DNA of 26,591 nt from a virus: the IMG/VR virus record IMGVR_UViG_3300027734_000272, positions 1 through 26,591 of that record. One strand, given 5' to 3'. Numbering within the stretch: position 1 is the first letter of the stretch; each line of letters begins with the position of its first letter. Shown here one piece after another: positions 15,224 through 23,324 of the stretch. The translations under genes and the position numbers were made by a program. The notes below the pieces were generated by a model. That model ran no database searches, was not told where the DNA came from, and saw nothing but the letters and a program-made list of their open reading frames with translations.

Positions 15224-17278
15224 ATGACACAGACAACACCAGACCTGCCACCAATCGGGCAGGTATTCAAGCCGCAGCACATCCCGCAGCAGCTCAAAAA
15301 CATGCGACGCTGGGCCCCGTGGAAGGCCGTGTGGAACGAGACCCGGCAGAAGTACGACAAGATCCCCTACCACCCTGACCACTACGGCCTGAGCACCAAG
15401 GACGTCAAGCGCTGGGTTGACTTCGACACCGCCAACAGCTCCCAGCGGCTCAACCCCAACAAGTACAAAGGCGTGGGCTTCGTGCTCACCGACATCACCG
15501 ACGTGGTGGGCATCGACCTAGACAACTGCGTCAAGGACGGCGTCATCGCCCCGTGGGCCTTGGAGATCATCGACGCCGTGAGCAGCTACACCGAGCGCAG
15601 CCCCAGCGGCAACGGCATACGCATACTGGCTACCGGCACCTTCCACACCGACTGGAACAACCACGACGTGGGCATCGAGGTCTACGCGGGCCACGCGCCG
15701 CGCTTCCTGACCATCACGGGCGACGCGGTGGGGCTCCCCGTGGGCTACCCGCTGTACGAGGCCCCGGCCGAGGTCCTGAGCACCCTGCACAGCCGCTACG
15801 GCCGTGGCCGGGCCACCGCCAACGTGATCCCCATCCAGATGCCCGAGCTGATCCCGTACGTCTTGCTGCCCGACGTCGAGGACATGGACATACCCGATGC
15901 CACCAAGGACATCCTGCTGCACGGACCCGACGAGACCGACGACCGTTCACTGGCCCTGCACCGCACCGGTGTGCAGCTCTACAGCGCGGGCTACAGCGAC
16001 GCCGAGGTCCTGTCCATACTGGCTAACAGCCAGCCCCTGTTCGACGTGGCTTTGTCCCACCGACGCATGGACGACGAGCGCGCCCTGCAGTACCTATGGG
16101 TCGAGCACTGCCAGAAGGCCAAGCCCAAGGCCGTCACCAAGGACTCGGTGATGGCCGACTTCCAAGACCTGAGCGCCGACCCGGAGGTGGCCGCCCAGAC
16201 AAAAAAGTCCGAGGAGGCTAAAGCCAAGGCCGAAGACCGCTTCAAACTGGAGACGGCAGTCGAGTTTGCCCAGCGCCGCAAGGCGTCGTGGATCGTCAAG
16301 GGCGTGGTGCCCATGGCCACGCTGGGCGTCATCTACGGGGCGTCAGGCTCGGGCAAGTCGTTTTGGCTTTTTGACCTGATGGCCGCCGTGGCCCGCGCGC
16401 AGGCCGTGAAGGACACCGCCAACGCCGTGCAGGCCCTGTGGCGTGGCAAGAAGATAAACCCTGCCCGCGTGTGCTGGATCGCTGCTGAGGGCGTGGAGGA
16501 CATGCGCAAGCGCGTCTTGGGCTACTGCACCCACCAAGGCATACCGCTGGCCAGCCTGCCCATGGAGTTCATCGGCGAGGCACCCAACTTCATGGAGGTT
16601 GTGGACGTCAAGGCCGTGATCAAACAGATACGCGCCCGGGGCAAGTTCGACGTGATCGTGATTGACACGCTGGCACAGGTCATGGCGGGCGGAAATGAAA
16701 ACTCAGGCGAAGACATGGGACAGGTGCTGGCCTACTGCCGCGAGATCACCCGGCTCACCGGGGCGATGGTCGTGTTGGTCCACCACAGCGGCAAGGACGA
16801 ATCCCGGGGAGCCCGGGGATGGTCGGGCCTTCGCGCCGCAGCCGACTTTGAGATGGAGATCATCCGCTCGGACAACGACCGCGTGGCCACGGTCACCAAG
16901 ATGAAGGGCGGGGAAGACGGCGGCGAGTACGGCTTCAAGCTGGAGACCGTCACGGTCGGCATGGACGACGACGGCGACGTGGAGACGACCTGCGTGGTGG
17001 TCTACACCGACAGCAGCCGGGCCTCTGTGGCCGTCACCAAGGGGCCGAGCGGGGCGAAGCACAAGCTGATCCTCAAGGAGGCCACGCGGCTCATCGAGCT
17101 GGCCGGGTCCGGCGTCACCTTCAGCGAGATCGTCGAGGTGGTCTGGCCGAAGTACCCACGGAACGACGAGAGCAAGCGCGACCAGCGCAAAAACAACGCC
17201 GGACGTGATTTGCGGGACGTCATTGCGGCTGGGCATCTGGCCCAAAACGACGATGGCGTGGTCAGCTTTCCAGAGTAA
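15224..17278 (+). CDS. Primase-helicase: AEP primase plus RepA-type AAA ATPase
   Basis: The 684-aa protein joins two enzymes. Residues about 20-190 are an archaeo-eukaryotic-type primase/polymerase: Asp98 and Asp100 in VVGIDLD, SPSGNG (126-131) where the usual His is replaced by Arg133, and Glu152 in GIEVY. Residues about 345-560 are a RecA/RepA-like ATPase: Walker A GASGSGKS (372-379), Walker B VIVIDT with Asp481, and the VLVHHSGK sensor (517-524). Residues about 613-684 form a winged-helix-like domain repeated in the next gene. It should unwind and prime phage DNA. A TTG at 15212 is an alternative start. Confidence 0.9.
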   Translation: MTQTTPDLPPIGQVFKPQHIPQQLKNMRRWAPWKAVWNETRQKYDKIPYHPDHYGLSTKDVKRWVDFDTANSSQRLNPNKYKGVGFVLTDITDVVGIDLDNCVKDGVIAPWALEIIDAVSSYTERSPSGNGIRILATGTFHTDWNNHDVGIEVYAGHAPRFLTITGDAVGLPVGYPLYEAPAEVLSTLHSRYGRGRATANVIPIQMPELIPYVLLPDVEDMDIPDATKDILLHGPDETDDRSLALHRTGVQLYSAGYSDAEVLSILANSQPLFDVALSHRRMDDERALQYLWVEHCQKAKPKAVTKDSVMADFQDLSADPEVAAQTKKSEEAKAKAEDRFKLETAVEFAQRRKASWIVKGVVPMATLGVIYGASGSGKSFWLFDLMAAVARAQAVKDTANAVQALWRGKKINPARVCWIAAEGVEDMRKRVLGYCTHQGIPLASLPMEFIGEAPNFMEVVDVKAVIKQIRARGKFDVIVIDTLAQVMAGGNENSGEDMGQVLAYCREITRLTGAMVVLVHHSGKDESRGARGWSGLRAAADFEMEIIRSDNDRVATVTKMKGGEDGGEYGFKLETVTVGMDDDGDVETTCVVVYTDSSRASVAVTKGPSGAKHKLILKEATRLIELAGSGVTFSEIVEVVWPKYPRNDESKRDQRKNNAGRDLRDVIAAGHLAQNDDGVVSFPE

Positions 17279-17293
17279 CCAAAGGAGAAACCT

Positions 17294-17686
17294 ATGTCAG
17301 AAACCAAGTACGAAGTCCTAGCGCGCATGGAAGCCGCCATCGCCACGATGCTTGCCATGCGTGATCTGTACTTCAGCACGTTGCCCCAAGAATTTCAAAT
17401 AGCGCGCGACGAGCCGCCTACCCCAACGCCCCTCGTAACGCGAAGCACGCTTCGTCAAAGGATGATTGTTAACACGGTGTCTAACCTTCAAGAGTTGTCG
17501 GGAGTGAACCCCACCTTTGAAGAAGTTCTCGACGCGGTTTGGCCACAGTACCCCCCGACCTTAGAAGGTAGGCGCGATATGCGCAAAGTCAACGCTAGGC
17601 GCGACCTGCGGGACGTTATTGCGGCCGGTTATTTGATAAAAAACAAGGACGATGAGGTCAGTTTGCCGGGCGTGTGCTACTTGTAG
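17294..17686 (+). CDS. Stand-alone copy of the primase C-terminal winged-helix domain
   Basis: The 130-aa protein starts after AAGGAG, 15 bases beyond the primase stop. Residues about 1-30 are a helix (EAAIATMLAMRDLYF) and 31-55 a Pro-rich linker. Residues about 60-125 clearly match the last 70 residues of the primase-helicase: both share VWPxYP, then RD-x-RK-x-NA, RDLRDVIAAG and a VS-x-P ending. The wing domain is therefore duplicated as a separate protein. Beside the repeat region at 17713-17820, a role as an origin-binding or loading factor is plausible inference. No known family name is claimed. Confidence 0.8.
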   Translation: MSETKYEVLARMEAAIATMLAMRDLYFSTLPQEFQIARDEPPTPTPLVTRSTLRQRMIVNTVSNLQELSGVNPTFEEVLDAVWPQYPPTLEGRRDMRKVNARRDLRDVIAAGYLIKNKDDEVSLPGVCYL

Positions 17687-17712
17687 GTTTTTGCATGTTT
17701 GTAAAAAATAGC

Positions 17713-17820
17713 TTGCTTCATTGCTTCAAGATTGCTTCAGAAGCCTTCAGAAGCAGGGCATATTGCTTCATTCGCTTCACCCCCCTTTAGGGGTGAAGCA
17801 TGAAGCAGAAGCCTGAAGCC
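17713..17820. repeat. Iteron-like repeats and hairpin: candidate replication origin
   Basis: TTGCTTCA occurs at 17713-17720, 17721-17728, 17732-17739 and 17763-17770, with TCGCTTCA at 17772-17779. The inverse TGAAGC occurs at 17794, 17801 and 17814. Further GCCTTCA/GAAGC variants fill the space. It lies directly after the primase and winged-helix genes and is followed by AT-rich DNA (17821-17880), the usual layout of a theta or iteron origin. No gene covers it. Confidence 0.6.
17764..17807. other. Long near-perfect hairpin within the repeat region
   Basis: The inner stem pairs GCTTCACCCC (17774-17783) with GGGGTGAAGC (17790-17799), 10 perfect base pairs around a 6-base loop. The outer stem pairs TGCTTCAT (17764-17771) with ATGAAGCA (17800-17807). 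Only two unpaired bases interrupt the total of 18 base pairs. No T-run follows, so it is not a typical intrinsic terminator. Confidence 0.75.
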
Positions 17821-17864
17821 AATTTGGTAATTATTTACAAAAACTATCGTGGTGAGATTTACAA

Positions 17865-17963
17865 TAGAAATATTTTACAAACAAACGCTTGTAACATCCA
17901 AAAAGCGGGTACACTTCAGGCATCGCAACAACGCGATGACACACAAACACACAGGAGTTAAAA
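17865..17963 (+). promoter_or_regulatory. Expression module A: promoter, 5' hairpin and leader
   Basis: TAGAAATATTTT (17865-17876) lies 45 bases before a -10-like TACACT (17910-17915). Then come the hairpin CATCGC/GCGATG with a 6-base loop (17921-17938), an ACACAAACACAC stretch and AGGAGT before the ATG. Every element recurs at the same spacing in module B (20164-20263). A start site seven bases after the -10 would put the hairpin at the mRNA 5' end. TTACAA/TTGTAA (17875-17894) is a further dyad. Confidence 0.65.
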
Positions 17964-18254
17964 ATGGCAAAAGCAGCAAAGTTGGTGGTGGAGTTGAACG
18001 AAGGCAGCGTGGACCGTCTGGGCATGTTGCTGGCACAGATCGCTGATCTGACCAAAGAAGCCGACGCGATCAAGGACGCGATCAAGTTGTCCGGCCTGTC
18101 GCATGAAGGCTCGTTCTTCAAGGCCACGCTGACCAAAGACGTCGACAAGAAAATCTTCGACAAGGAATTCTTCGTCCAGCAGCACGGTGAGGTCGCGTAC
18201 GACGCCTACACCAAGAACATCCAAATCACTTCCGTCAAAGTCACTTCCCGTTAA
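17964..18254 (+). CDS. 96-aa protein, payload of expression module A
   Basis: The protein MAKAAKLVVELNEGSVDRLG starts with a basic strand. It then has a helix typical of a coiled coil (IADLTKEADAIKDAIKLSGL) and a beta-like C-terminal half (EGSFFKATLTKDVDKK, ending ITSVKVTSR). The layout resembles small conserved phage proteins with an EADxIKD helix followed by an FKATL-type strand, function unassigned. The promoter and leader module, the strong ribosome site and the 3' hairpin suggest high expression. It is unrelated to the 79-aa protein of module B although their starts share the same ten bases. Confidence 0.8.
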   Translation: MAKAAKLVVELNEGSVDRLGMLLAQIADLTKEADAIKDAIKLSGLSHEGSFFKATLTKDVDKKIFDKEFFVQQHGEVAYDAYTKNIQITSVKVTSR

Positions 18255-18262
18255 TCAACCCG

Positions 18263-18276
18263 GGGGCTTCGGCCCC
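18263..18276 (+). terminator. UUCG hairpin at the end of module A
   Basis: GGGGC (18263-18267), TTCG loop and GCCCC (18272-18276) begin eight bases after the stop. The surrounding TAATCAACCCGGGGGCTTCG is repeated after the 79-aa gene. There is no T-run, so it is more likely a 3'-end stabiliser or weak terminator. Confidence 0.6.
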
Positions 18277-20163: not shown

Positions 20164-20263
20164 TAGAAATATTTTTCTTGTGGGGCGGCCCAAACTGTAA
20201 TTTCCTGTTACATTTCATTCATCGCAATAACGCGATGACGCACAAACATACGGAGTAAAGAAA
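20164..20263 (+). promoter_or_regulatory. Expression module B: promoter, 5' hairpin and leader
   Basis: Equivalent to module A with identical spacing: TAGAAATATTTT (20164-20175), -10-like TACATT (20209-20214) preceded by an extended TG, hairpin CATCGC/GCGATG (20220-20237), a CACAAACATAC stretch and GGAGT. Between modules the -35 region differs, while the -10, hairpin and leader are conserved. The dyad TGTAA/TTACA (20196-20212) overlaps the -10. Confidence 0.65.
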
Positions 20264-20503
20264 ATGGCAAAAGTTACAACAGCAGTCGTTTATCCCGCAG
20301 TCGGATTTATGGGCGCAACAAATTGCGTTCCTGTTTTCGGTAAGTCGGTTGAAGAAGTTCGCGCACTGGGTCGCACTGATCGTGAGCGCTTTGATCTTGC
20401 TGTCGAAGTAGTGGCGTATTTTTATCGCGGCGTGGCCACACCTCAAGTTCAGGATAATCCTGCCGCTTTTTTTGCACCTTGGGCGCAAGTAGCTGCGCTT
20501 TAA
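20264..20503 (+). CDS. 79-aa protein, payload of expression module B
   Basis: The protein MAKVTTAVVYPAVGFMGATN is followed by CVPVFGKSVEEVRAL and a helical end (AVEVVAYFYRGVATP). It is not similar to the 96-aa payload of module A apart from the first codons. The family is not recognised. The leader, ribosome site and 3' hairpin match module A almost exactly, suggesting an independently expressed, swappable gene. Confidence 0.75.
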   Translation: MAKVTTAVVYPAVGFMGATNCVPVFGKSVEEVRALGRTDRERFDLAVEVVAYFYRGVATPQVQDNPAAFFAPWAQVAAL

Positions 20504-20510
20504 TCAACCC

Positions 20511-20526
20511 GGGGGCTTCGGCCCCC
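20511..20526 (+). terminator. UUCG hairpin at the end of module B
   Basis: GGGGGC (20511-20516), TTCG, GCCCCC (20521-20526) make a 6-bp stem seven bases after the stop. The same flanking sequence occurs after module A. Confidence 0.6.
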
Positions 20527-21140: not shown

Positions 21141-21644
21141 ATGGCAACTGGTAAAAAAGCGCGGCGTCCGGCAAACGATCCGCATTTCCCGGACAAGGAG
21201 CAGATCAAGGATCGCCTGATCGCTTGGCTGTCTGAGGGCAATACGCTGATGGATTTTTGCCGCGTGGAGGTTCACCCATCATTCAGGACGATTTACAACT
21301 GGCAAGCCGAAGACCCTGTCTTTGATGCAAACATCGCGCGTGCGCGTGATATAGGGCACGACGCAATTGCTGAGGAGAGCCTGCAACTGGCAGACAAAGA
21401 GCCGCTGGCCGTGTTCGACGAGGCTGGCAACAAGCGCTTCGACCCCGGCAGCATTGCGTGGCGCAAGATGCAGATTGAAACGCGCTTGAAGCTGCTGGCC
21501 AAGTGGAACCCCAAGAAGTACGGCGACAAGACGGTGCTGGCGGGCGACCCCGACGCCCCGTTGGCCGTGACGGTGGACTTCGGCACGTTCGACGCGATGC
21601 TCACCAACATCGAGCTGCTGCGCCACGATGGGCAACCTAGTTAA
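21141..21644 (+). CDS. terS: Terminase small subunit
   Basis: The 167-aa protein precedes the large subunit and has the layout of Sf6-type terminase small subunits. A basic start (KKARRPANDPHF) precedes a helix-turn-helix DNA-binding region at about residues 18-55 (WLSEGNTLMDFCRVEVHPSF, RTIYNW). Then come helical oligomerisation segments (ARDIGHDAIAEESLQLADKE, AWRKMQIETRLKLLAKWNPK) and KYGDK. It recognises the packaging site and regulates the large subunit. AAGGGG is the ribosome site. The stop overlaps a copy of the sequence that starts the large subunit. Confidence 0.85.
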   Translation: MATGKKARRPANDPHFPDKEQIKDRLIAWLSEGNTLMDFCRVEVHPSFRTIYNWQAEDPVFDANIARARDIGHDAIAEESLQLADKEPLAVFDEAGNKRFDPGSIAWRKMQIETRLKLLAKWNPKKYGDKTVLAGDPDAPLAVTVDFGTFDAMLTNIELLRHDGQPS

Positions 21645-21927
21645 CCGGAGACCCGCATGGACCTCGCACACTTAGACACCATCGCAAAGAAGTACGACCT
21701 GAGCGATCCCGACCACCGCGCCAACTTCCGCATGGACGTCAGGGAGACCTACAAGCCCACCAGAATGTCCGCCATCAATGAGTGGACGGGCGGCAACCAC
21801 AAGAGCCGGGAAGACGCTGTGCGCGCCTTGGCGGACACGTACATTGCCCAGAAGCGCGGCGTGGTGCGCAAGGCTGCTGGCGGGCGCGTGAGCTGGTAAA
21901 CCGGCGCGATGGGCAACCTAGCTGACC
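21626..21927 (+). repeat. Pair of direct repeats flanking the 80-aa gene
   Basis: CGATGGGCAACCTAG is found at 21626-21640 (end of terS) and 21907-21921 (start of terL), and the similarity continues for six more bases with two differences. The first copy contains an ATG GGC AAC CTA that would be the terL start. The 80-aa gene lies between the copies. Confidence 0.75.
21657..21899 (+). CDS. 80-aa gene inserted between the terminase subunits
   Basis: The ATG follows GGAG closely. The protein MDLAHLDTIAKKYDLSDPDH has a helical start, a basic/aromatic middle (RETYKPTRMSAINEWTGGNH) and a helical end (EDAVRALADTYIAQKRGVVR). The family is not recognised. It sits between copies of a direct repeat that carries the terL start, so it looks like a cargo gene. 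Confidence 0.7.
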   Translation: MDLAHLDTIAKKYDLSDPDHRANFRMDVRETYKPTRMSAINEWTGGNHKSREDAVRALADTYIAQKRGVVRKAAGGRVSW

Positions 21928-23324
21928 TGCTGCGCGACCCGCAGGTGCGGGCGCAGTACGCCAAGCTGCCCGCAACGCACCGCGCCGCGTTCGACTGGCG
22001 CGCCAAGTGGCTGCTGGCCGCGCACAAGCACCAGCTCGAGCCGCCCGGCACGTGGTGGAACATCCACTTGATGGTCGCAGGCCGGGGCGCGGGCAAGACG
22101 CGCGCAGCCGCCGAGAACCTCGGCTGGTGGGCATGGCAGAACCCCAACACCCGGTGGCTGGTGTCAGCCCCAACGTCCAGCGACCTGCGCGCAACCTGTT
22201 ACGAGGGCGATAGCGGGCTGCTATCGGTGATCCCACCCGAGCTGATCAAGGACTACAACAAGAGCCTGCACGAGCTGGTGCTGGTCAACGGCAGCCTGAT
22301 CAAGGGCATCCCGGCGTCGGAGCCCGAGCGTTTTCGCGGTCCGCAGTTCCATGGCGGCTGGCTGGACGAGCTGGCCGCGTGGGACTATCTGCAAGAGAGC
22401 TGGGACATGATCATGTTCGGCATCCGGCTGGGCCAGCGCACCAAGCTGATCTGCTCGACCACACCCAAGCCCAAGGACGTGGTGCTGGACCTGATCAGCC
22501 GCGAGGGCGACGACGTGGTGATCACGCGCGCGTCGACCTACGCGAACATCGCCAACCTAGCCCCATCGTTCCAGAAGCAGATCCTGCAGTACGAGGGCAC
22601 CAACCTTGGTCGGCAAGAGATACATGCAGAGATTATTGACCCCGAAGAAGGCGGCATCGTCCAGCGCGACTGGTTCCGGCTGTGGCCAGACGGCAAGCCC
22701 TTCCCCAAGTTCGAGTACGTGATCCAGTCCTACGACTGCGGCTACAAGGACAAGGAGGCCAGCGACCCGACCGGCAACATCACGCTGGGCGTGTTCAAGC
22801 CGCTGGACGGCGGCATGTGCGTGATGGTGATCGACTGCTGGCAGGAGAAGCTGACCTACCCCGACCTGCGGCCCAAGATCATCGACGAGTACGAGACCGT
22901 GTACGGCGAGGGCAAAGAGAAGAAGCGCGTCGACCTGCTGCTGGTCGAGGACAAGGCGGCGGGCATCTCGCTGATACAGGACCTGCAGCGGGCCGGGCTG
23001 CCGGTGCGGGGCTACAACCCGGGGCGGGCCGACAAGAGCCAGCGCCTGAGCATTGTGGCCAACATCATCAAGGCCGGGCGCGTCTGGGTGCCGGAGAGCA
23101 GCGTGCGCAAGGGCTACGTGCGGGACTGGGCCGAGGGCATGGTCAGCCAGATATGTTCGTTCCCCAACACGGCGCACGACGAGTACGTGGACTGCATCAG
23201 CCAAGCCCTGCGCTTCCTGCGCGACGCGGGCTGGATCAGCATCGACTTCCCCAAGGAGTGGGTGGACGAGGACGACTACATTGACGCGGGCCAGCGCAGC
23301 CGCGAGAATCCGTACGCGGCGTAG
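21909..23324 (+). CDS. terL: Terminase large subunit
   Basis: The 471-aa motor-nuclease has the ATPase motifs AGRGAGKT (Walker A, 57-64), GWLDELAAW with Asp153-Glu154 (Walker B, 150-158) and CSTTPKPK (182-189, coupling motif). The C-terminal RNase H-like nuclease has Asp276 (SYDCGYKD), Asp348 in LLLVEDKAAG and Asp424 in HDEYVDCI. It translocates phage DNA into the prohead and cuts it. The start has no clear Shine-Dalgarno and lies in the second copy of the direct repeat. Confidence 0.95.
   Translation: MGNLADLLRDPQVRAQYAKLPATHRAAFDWRAKWLLAAHKHQLEPPGTWWNIHLMVAGRGAGKTRAAAENLGWWAWQNPNTRWLVSAPTSSDLRATCYEGDSGLLSVIPPELIKDYNKSLHELVLVNGSLIKGIPASEPERFRGPQFHGGWLDELAAWDYLQESWDMIMFGIRLGQRTKLICSTTPKPKDVVLDLISREGDDVVITRASTYANIANLAPSFQKQILQYEGTNLGRQEIHAEIIDPEEGGIVQRDWFRLWPDGKPFPKFEYVIQSYDCGYKDKEASDPTGNITLGVFKPLDGGMCVMVIDCWQEKLTYPDLRPKIIDEYETVYGEGKEKKRVDLLLVEDKAAGISLIQDLQRAGLPVRGYNPGRADKSQRLSIVANIIKAGRVWVPESSVRKGYVRDWAEGMVSQICSFPNTAHDEYVDCISQALRFLRDAGWISIDFPKEWVDEDDYIDAGQRSRENPYAA

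Follow-up and report, generated by a model that had tools for sequence, protein, structure and literature searches.

The locus raises the question of what a dense group of short repeats, placed directly behind a replication gene, does for the phage that carries it. The window, i.e. the whole stretch of DNA analyzed (26,591 nucleotides), is a 26.6-kb virus record (IMG/VR IMGVR_UViG_3300027734_000272) of a freshwater phage, with genes for a DNA polymerase of family A, an SNF2-type helicase, and the terminase. An earlier note had read part of it as a candidate replication origin built from iterons around a strong hairpin. All eight units listed there were recovered: TTGCTTCA at 17713, 17721, 17732, and 17763, TCGCTTCA at 17772, and inverse units at 17794, 17801, and 17814. 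The first five are forward units, and the iteron array as a whole spans 17713-17821. Further degenerate inverse units, absent from the earlier list, were found near 17745-17755 and 17808-17813. The most common 6-mer, GCTTCA, occurred in 8 copies within a 160-nt stretch. In dinucleotide shuffles of the same 600 nt, the best 6-mer averaged 2.8 copies and never exceeded 4. Over the whole window, TTGCTTCA-like words were no more common than expected by chance (27 versus 22.6 expected); the signal therefore lies in their clustering.

The hairpin was also recovered when the strand was folded as DNA, with 18 bp and one 2-nt bulge. It occupies 17764-17807, where the arms 17764-17771 and 17774-17783 pair with 17790-17807, the bulge is TC at 17772-17773, and the loop has 6 nt (17784-17789). 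The conserved sequence CTTTAG is located at 17785-17790. Folding of the 126-nt array gave z = -5.75 compared with shuffles. AT-rich DNA behind the array was borne out, as 17821-17880 has 78% AT, and only 0.02% of 60-nt windows score as high. This downstream flank (17821-17885), a candidate DNA-unwinding element, contains three TTTACAA elements. A second AT-rich flank, not listed before, lies upstream (17688-17712, 76% AT) and holds a GTAAAAAAT element with an inverted partner at 17870-17883. The motif [GC/GT]AA[AT]4-6[AC/GC], which was defined post hoc and whose enrichment is partly a composition effect, occurred at 5.5 per kb in the AT-rich flanks versus 0.058 elsewhere. Iteron origins have clustered short repeats near an initiator gene and an AT-rich region adjoining the repeats, and both were found here (8 units versus the shuffle maximum of 4; 78% AT versus 41% for the window). 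The array, the hairpin, and the AT-rich DNA are real and well beyond chance.

The gene upstream (15224-17278, plus strand) encodes a 684-aa protein with a Pfam AAA_25 match (E = 1.4e-30) and the PHROG annotation primase/helicase. Profile searches against the PDB matched a PrimPol domain (about aa 18-196; 15275-15811, plus strand) to the NrS-1 primase (6a9w, E = 4e-28) and a RepA-type RecA-fold helicase domain (aa 344-526; 16253-16801, plus strand) to RSF1010 RepA (1g8y, E = 7e-8). The N-terminal part also matched PDB entry 7ola, listed as "DNA primase" (E = 1e-37). For the AlphaFold2 model (pLDDT 89), the top Foldseek matches were NrS-1 PrimPol and RSF1010 RepA (E values of 1.9e-13 for 7rr4 and 5.8e-11 for 1nlf). 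The assignment to the AEP PrimPols of the NrS-1/pRN1 type is backed by sequence, by fold, and by the motifs DLD, SPSG, and RFLTITG; that to the RSF1010 RepA-type hexameric helicases is backed by a RecA-fold domain of the AAA_25/RepA family. The 684-aa enzyme is predicted to join an NrS-1-type PrimPol and a helicase of the RSF1010 RepA type in one chain. Since both folds are those of replication enzymes, these predicted assignments would count for an origin. In the AlphaFold2 model, the C terminus (aa 611-684; 17054-17275, plus strand) forms a winged helix of H-H-H-E order (helices 611-627, 633-643, and 655-668; strand 679-681), which is the proposed iteron-binding domain. The third helix is its predicted recognition helix (about aa 654-668; 17183-17227, plus strand). 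In one relative (L010, 4808-4812) the primase-helicase frame is split in two by a frameshift or a sequencing error.

Between this gene and the array lies a small gene (17294-17686, plus strand) for a 130-aa protein, which the earlier note had taken for a putative DNA-binding paralogue. The protein is 49% identical to the primase-helicase C terminus over 75 aa and is a stand-alone winged-helix copy with its own N-terminal extension (AlphaFold2 pLDDT 81). Residues 49-128 matched winged helices with Z up to 8.7 and Foldseek E values of only 0.07-0.1, so the fold is clear and the subfamily is not. The paralogy stands, but the protein is not likely to be the main array binder. Among the relatives compared, a copy is present only in the window, L004, L005, L011, and L012. 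The protein was dropped as the main binder because most relatives with an array of the same kind lack it. The array is more likely bound by the primase-helicase, by way of its C-terminal winged helix. A small ORF also occupies the slot of the 130-aa paralogue in L020, L029, and L040 (also L033); that of L020 reads VDRLGEVLGRIAQLTLEANDIK and resembles a 96-aa protein whose gene in the window lies downstream of the array.

Relatives were collected by searching IMG/VR with several members, and one Limnohabitans genome (L070) was added. The comparison set consists of 47 non-redundant full-length primase-helicases from phages with a readable array. In nearly all 47 phages, the unit array and hairpin lie directly 3' of the primase-helicase gene. 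The array starts no more than about 150 nt past the stop codon in most relatives, and a small ORF intervenes in the window and a few others. The shared layout is an AT-rich flank, forward, inverse, and forward units, a GC-rich hairpin, inverse units, and an AT-rich flank. The unit varies between phages as a whole set, with about 15 types, while layout and hairpin are kept. The types, whose labels were assigned partly by eye, include TGCTTCA, TGCTTCC, TGCACCA, TGCAACA, TGGATCA, TGCCACA, CCCACA, TNCTCCA, CTTCTTCA, TGTTCC, GGACA, CCGTAACG, and others. One locus (L160) was too short for 6-mer scoring; the best 6-mer occurred in 6-13 copies in 41 of the 46 scored loci, compared with shuffle means near 3. 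In the five exceptions (L152, L061, L063, L081, and L143), the units are degenerate or longer and are visible on reading.

Repeats scattered over unrelated sites of related phages, which the earlier note had named as evidence against an origin, were looked for in five relatives (54-111 kb), and the CCCTTTAGGG hairpin core was found once per genome. Each genome has its units densely clustered at a single place, immediately 3' of the primase-helicase gene. No repeat array was found in the 600 nt past the helicase gene of Caulobacter phage RW and Mycobacterium phage Wanda, which are top or frequent helicase relatives in tblastn. Behind the more distant AAA_25 helicase genes of freshwater phages (L234-L291), short repeats are again dense (TACGCA, GTTACA, GTCCGA, ATAGCC, and others), and the hairpins differ. 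GC skew was followed along four large relatives of 54-57 kb, one of which carries a 127-bp terminal repeat, and it did not switch clearly at the array. Its extremes did not match the array consistently; as this speaks neither for nor against an origin, skew was left out of the evidence.

Each of 666 protein columns was scored by its adjusted mutual information (AMI) with unit type. The top columns were 654 (AMI 0.54), 644, 656, 660, 658, 646, 679, and 657. All belong to the C-terminal domain, and most fall within or next to the predicted recognition helix (655-668). Seven C-terminal columns were tested against 30-88 core columns of like entropy, none of which equaled any of the seven (core maximum 0.31). 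In an RD-X-R motif, X is Q with TGCTTCA units, T (or L, M) with TGCAACA, L with TGCACCA, K with TGGATCA, R with TGCCACA, and N with TNCTCCA, with exceptions in distant members. L144 and L145, for example, have TGCTTCA units but N in place of Q. Residue-unit matches recur for Q654 and TGCTTCA in the distant L070 and for RKQH and TGCACCA in L018 and L231. At core identities of at least 0.8, the helix region is 0.89 identical in pairs with the same units (14 pairs) versus 0.41 in pairs with different units (11 pairs). Below a core identity of 0.6 the link is weak (0.36 versus 0.26; 0.32 versus 0.31). Because the domain adjoins the array, co-inheritance alone would tie all of its columns to the unit even without contact. 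The case for direct contact draws on how the columns rank inside the domain and on the few repeated residue-unit matches. From this co-variation and from the cassette exchange described next, we infer that the winged helix contacts the units.

A tree of 47 leaves, built from the core (aa 1-590), contains at least 26 changes of unit type. In the pair L044 and L026, DNA identity is 73-97% (mostly 85-97%) as far as position -240 relative to the stop codon, falls to 43-52% between -240 and +180, and returns to 80-97% thereafter. The unlike block of ~420 bp comprises the winged-helix coding end and the array. At the protein level, the core of this pair is 95% identical and the C-terminal domain 33%. 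A similar block pattern was found in four more pairs (W/L014, L056/L046, L060/L061, and L143/L119). The block divergence in these pairs and the changes on the tree together show, at the level of sequence comparison, that the domain and its own array have been replaced together, many times.

A CTTTAG hairpin apex with a stem of at least 4 pairs is present in 45 of 134 loci, and CTAAAG, the other orientation, in 5 of 134, four of these being distant relatives. The apex differs in about half of the set, with other apices in many relatives. In L145, the array of which lies about 0-200 nt past the stop codon, the hairpin loop (CCCCTAAAGGGG) is reversed relative to that of the window. Paired changes in the apex are strong, but the sample consists of hairpins preselected for at least 4 pairs, and this covariation is therefore only supportive. 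In Rhizobium phage 16-3 (L307, 4054-4420; about 56244-56610 of the record), GCGTGACA units in both orientations and a CTTTAG hairpin lie directly 3' of p101 (Prim-Pol + AAA_25). In this cultured temperate phage, the array is a likely origin that has not been annotated. Further cultured elements (L305, L306, and L308) combine a CTTTAG hairpin with other, unrelated repeats 3' of a RepA-type helicase gene; these are Roseobacter phage CRP-831 (GTATAAA units), Burkholderia phage BcepGomr, and, as identified by reading, Polaromonas plasmid pPNAP03. A loop that is kept while units change suggests, by analogy to the ssi hairpins of RSF1010 (PMC4434180), a shared step such as primer start.

Other functions for such a locus were weighed against these data. 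An operator or attenuator, at which the winged helix of the enzyme or of the 130-aa protein would regulate downstream transcription, is unlikely. The array does have the replication gene on one side and gene 17964 on the other, the winged-helix domain resembles many repressors, and a stand-alone copy exists. However, at least 8 units with a hairpin and AT-rich flanks exceed the needs of an operator, and most relatives that keep the array have no such copy. Furthermore, no promoter beyond chance was found, no T tract of an intrinsic terminator follows the central hairpin, and the other gene-end hairpins of the phage (18260s and 20510s) carry TTCG loops.

Less probable still is a site for partition, incompatibility, or copy control, comparable to P4 crr, instead of an initiation site. 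Iterons often control copy number, and the alpha protein of phage P4 binds both ori and crr. However, a single array was found per genome, with no second site of such units that could be a separate ori, and the AT-rich flanks and hairpin suit initiation. That the array acts as RNA, in the form of a structured transcript past the 3' end of the primase-helicase gene, is very improbable. The strong fold and the paired apex changes would fit this, the latter with the preselection noted above, but an Rfam search gave no family (best E = 0.71), the unit changes along with a DNA-binding domain, and the dyad alone accounts for the pairing. A packaging site (pac or cos) has next to no probability. The terminase genes are 3.3 kb away (21141-23324), but the array tracks the primase-helicase C terminus and not the terminase, adjoins the replication gene in relatives, and has a similar hairpin beside a plasmid helicase gene.

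An origin of the iteron type is the best explanation, and the comparative data support it much more strongly than the single sequence did. The segment 17688-17885 is most probably the replication origin of the phage, bound by the primase-helicase via its C-terminal domain, with the hairpin probably used for priming or strand opening. The primase-helicase, encoded just upstream, would bind the TGCTTCA units through its winged helix, as co-variation and cassette exchange indicate. Forward units left of the hairpin and inverse units right of it would load helicase copies around the dyad, and the AT-rich flanks would open. The hairpin with its CTTTAG apex, exposed on single strands, might then be a start site for the fused PrimPol or an aid to strand opening; this is the least certain step. 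The 130-aa protein, as a stand-alone binding domain, may compete for or modulate the origin. Sequence comparison shows the swap of one block, the winged-helix coding end plus the array, by which binding specificity would evolve.

Two observations concern the region behind the array. The leader of ORF 17964 (17910-17973; CATCGCAACAACGCGATGAC...ACACA...GGAGTTAAAAATGGCAAAAG) recurs with 85% identity ahead of ORF 20264 (20209-20273), and this is either a duplicated expression signal or a small inverted repeat. Gene-end hairpins at 18238-18276 and 20487-20525 are 87% identical and have TTCG loops, compared with the TTTA loop of the array hairpin.

Several known systems share parts of this organization. 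P4 alpha combines primase, helicase, and origin-binding domain in one protein and acts on an iteron origin. The window system resembles it in these three functions, the binding domain being predicted, and in the iterons; P4 alpha differs by its Toprim-type primase, its other helicase family, and its two separate repeat sites. According to PMC7581432 (citing Ubeda et al. 2007), the C-terminal domain of the initiator helicases SaPI Rep and SCCmec Cch2 reads short iterons just downstream of its own gene, and SaPI5 Rep also has a primase domain. The window system would be similar in function, with a C-terminal domain and iterons 3' of its own gene. However, the SaPI/SCC helicases belong to DUF927 and D5/Primase_Cterm, whereas Pfam gives AAA_25 only for the window enzyme, which is of the RSF1010 RepA type. 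Because the helicase family differs, the enzyme would work like SaPI Rep without being a member of that group. The phage group also differs by its central hairpin with a conserved loop and by repeated cassette exchange.

In pRN1, ORF904 combines PrimPol, helicase, and winged helix, and its gene is followed immediately on the 3' side by an essential stem-loop of ~100 bp (PMC4234260, where P4 alpha is also discussed). The layout is like that of the window, but pRN1 has an SF3 helicase and, according to that paper, no iterons, whereas the window has an AAA_25 helicase and a stem-loop itself built of iterons. The window system is thus no member of the pRN1-type replicons, nor, by its helicase family, of the P4 alpha type. 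At oriV of RSF1010 (IncQ), RepC, RepA, and RepB' act with the ssiA/ssiB hairpins (PMC4434180). RepA-type helicase, iterons, and hairpin are shared, the hairpins of RSF1010 being primase start hairpins; the three activities are separate proteins in RSF1010 and fused, with an NrS-1-type primase, in the window. The phage NrS-1 primase-polymerase recognizes the short template motifs 5'-TTTGGTTA-3' and GTGA/GTGG (PMC8718748). It is the closest characterized relative of the N-terminal domain, and its helicase part differs. The literature, covered incompletely, gave no account of the array in Limnohabitans or other freshwater phages, nor a description of the domain combination, of recurrent cassette exchange, or of a hairpin conserved across unit types. 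The parts are known; new are the domain combination, the recurrent cassette switching, and the conserved CTTTAG loop.

A broader reading is offered tentatively. Replication identity might reside in a swappable cassette of ~420 bp, the binding domain with its matching array, exchanged under selection around a widespread CTTTAG hairpin at which the PrimPol would start, in a plasmid and in unrelated phages as well. Within this reading, an equally speculative source of selection could be, for example, escape from competing co-infecting replicons or from parasites that use the origin. For uncultured phages, the layout gives a simple rule for finding origins: one looks past the 3' end of a PrimPol-RepA fusion gene for short units arranged as a dyad about a hairpin, whose apex is often CTTTAG. 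The same layout in Rhizobium phage 16-3 provides a cultured test system. Nature has placed about 15 initiator-origin specificities on nearly one enzyme, and several pairs differ mainly in the cassette. With this natural set, the recognition code of the initiator, and the reason why phages change it, become directly testable.
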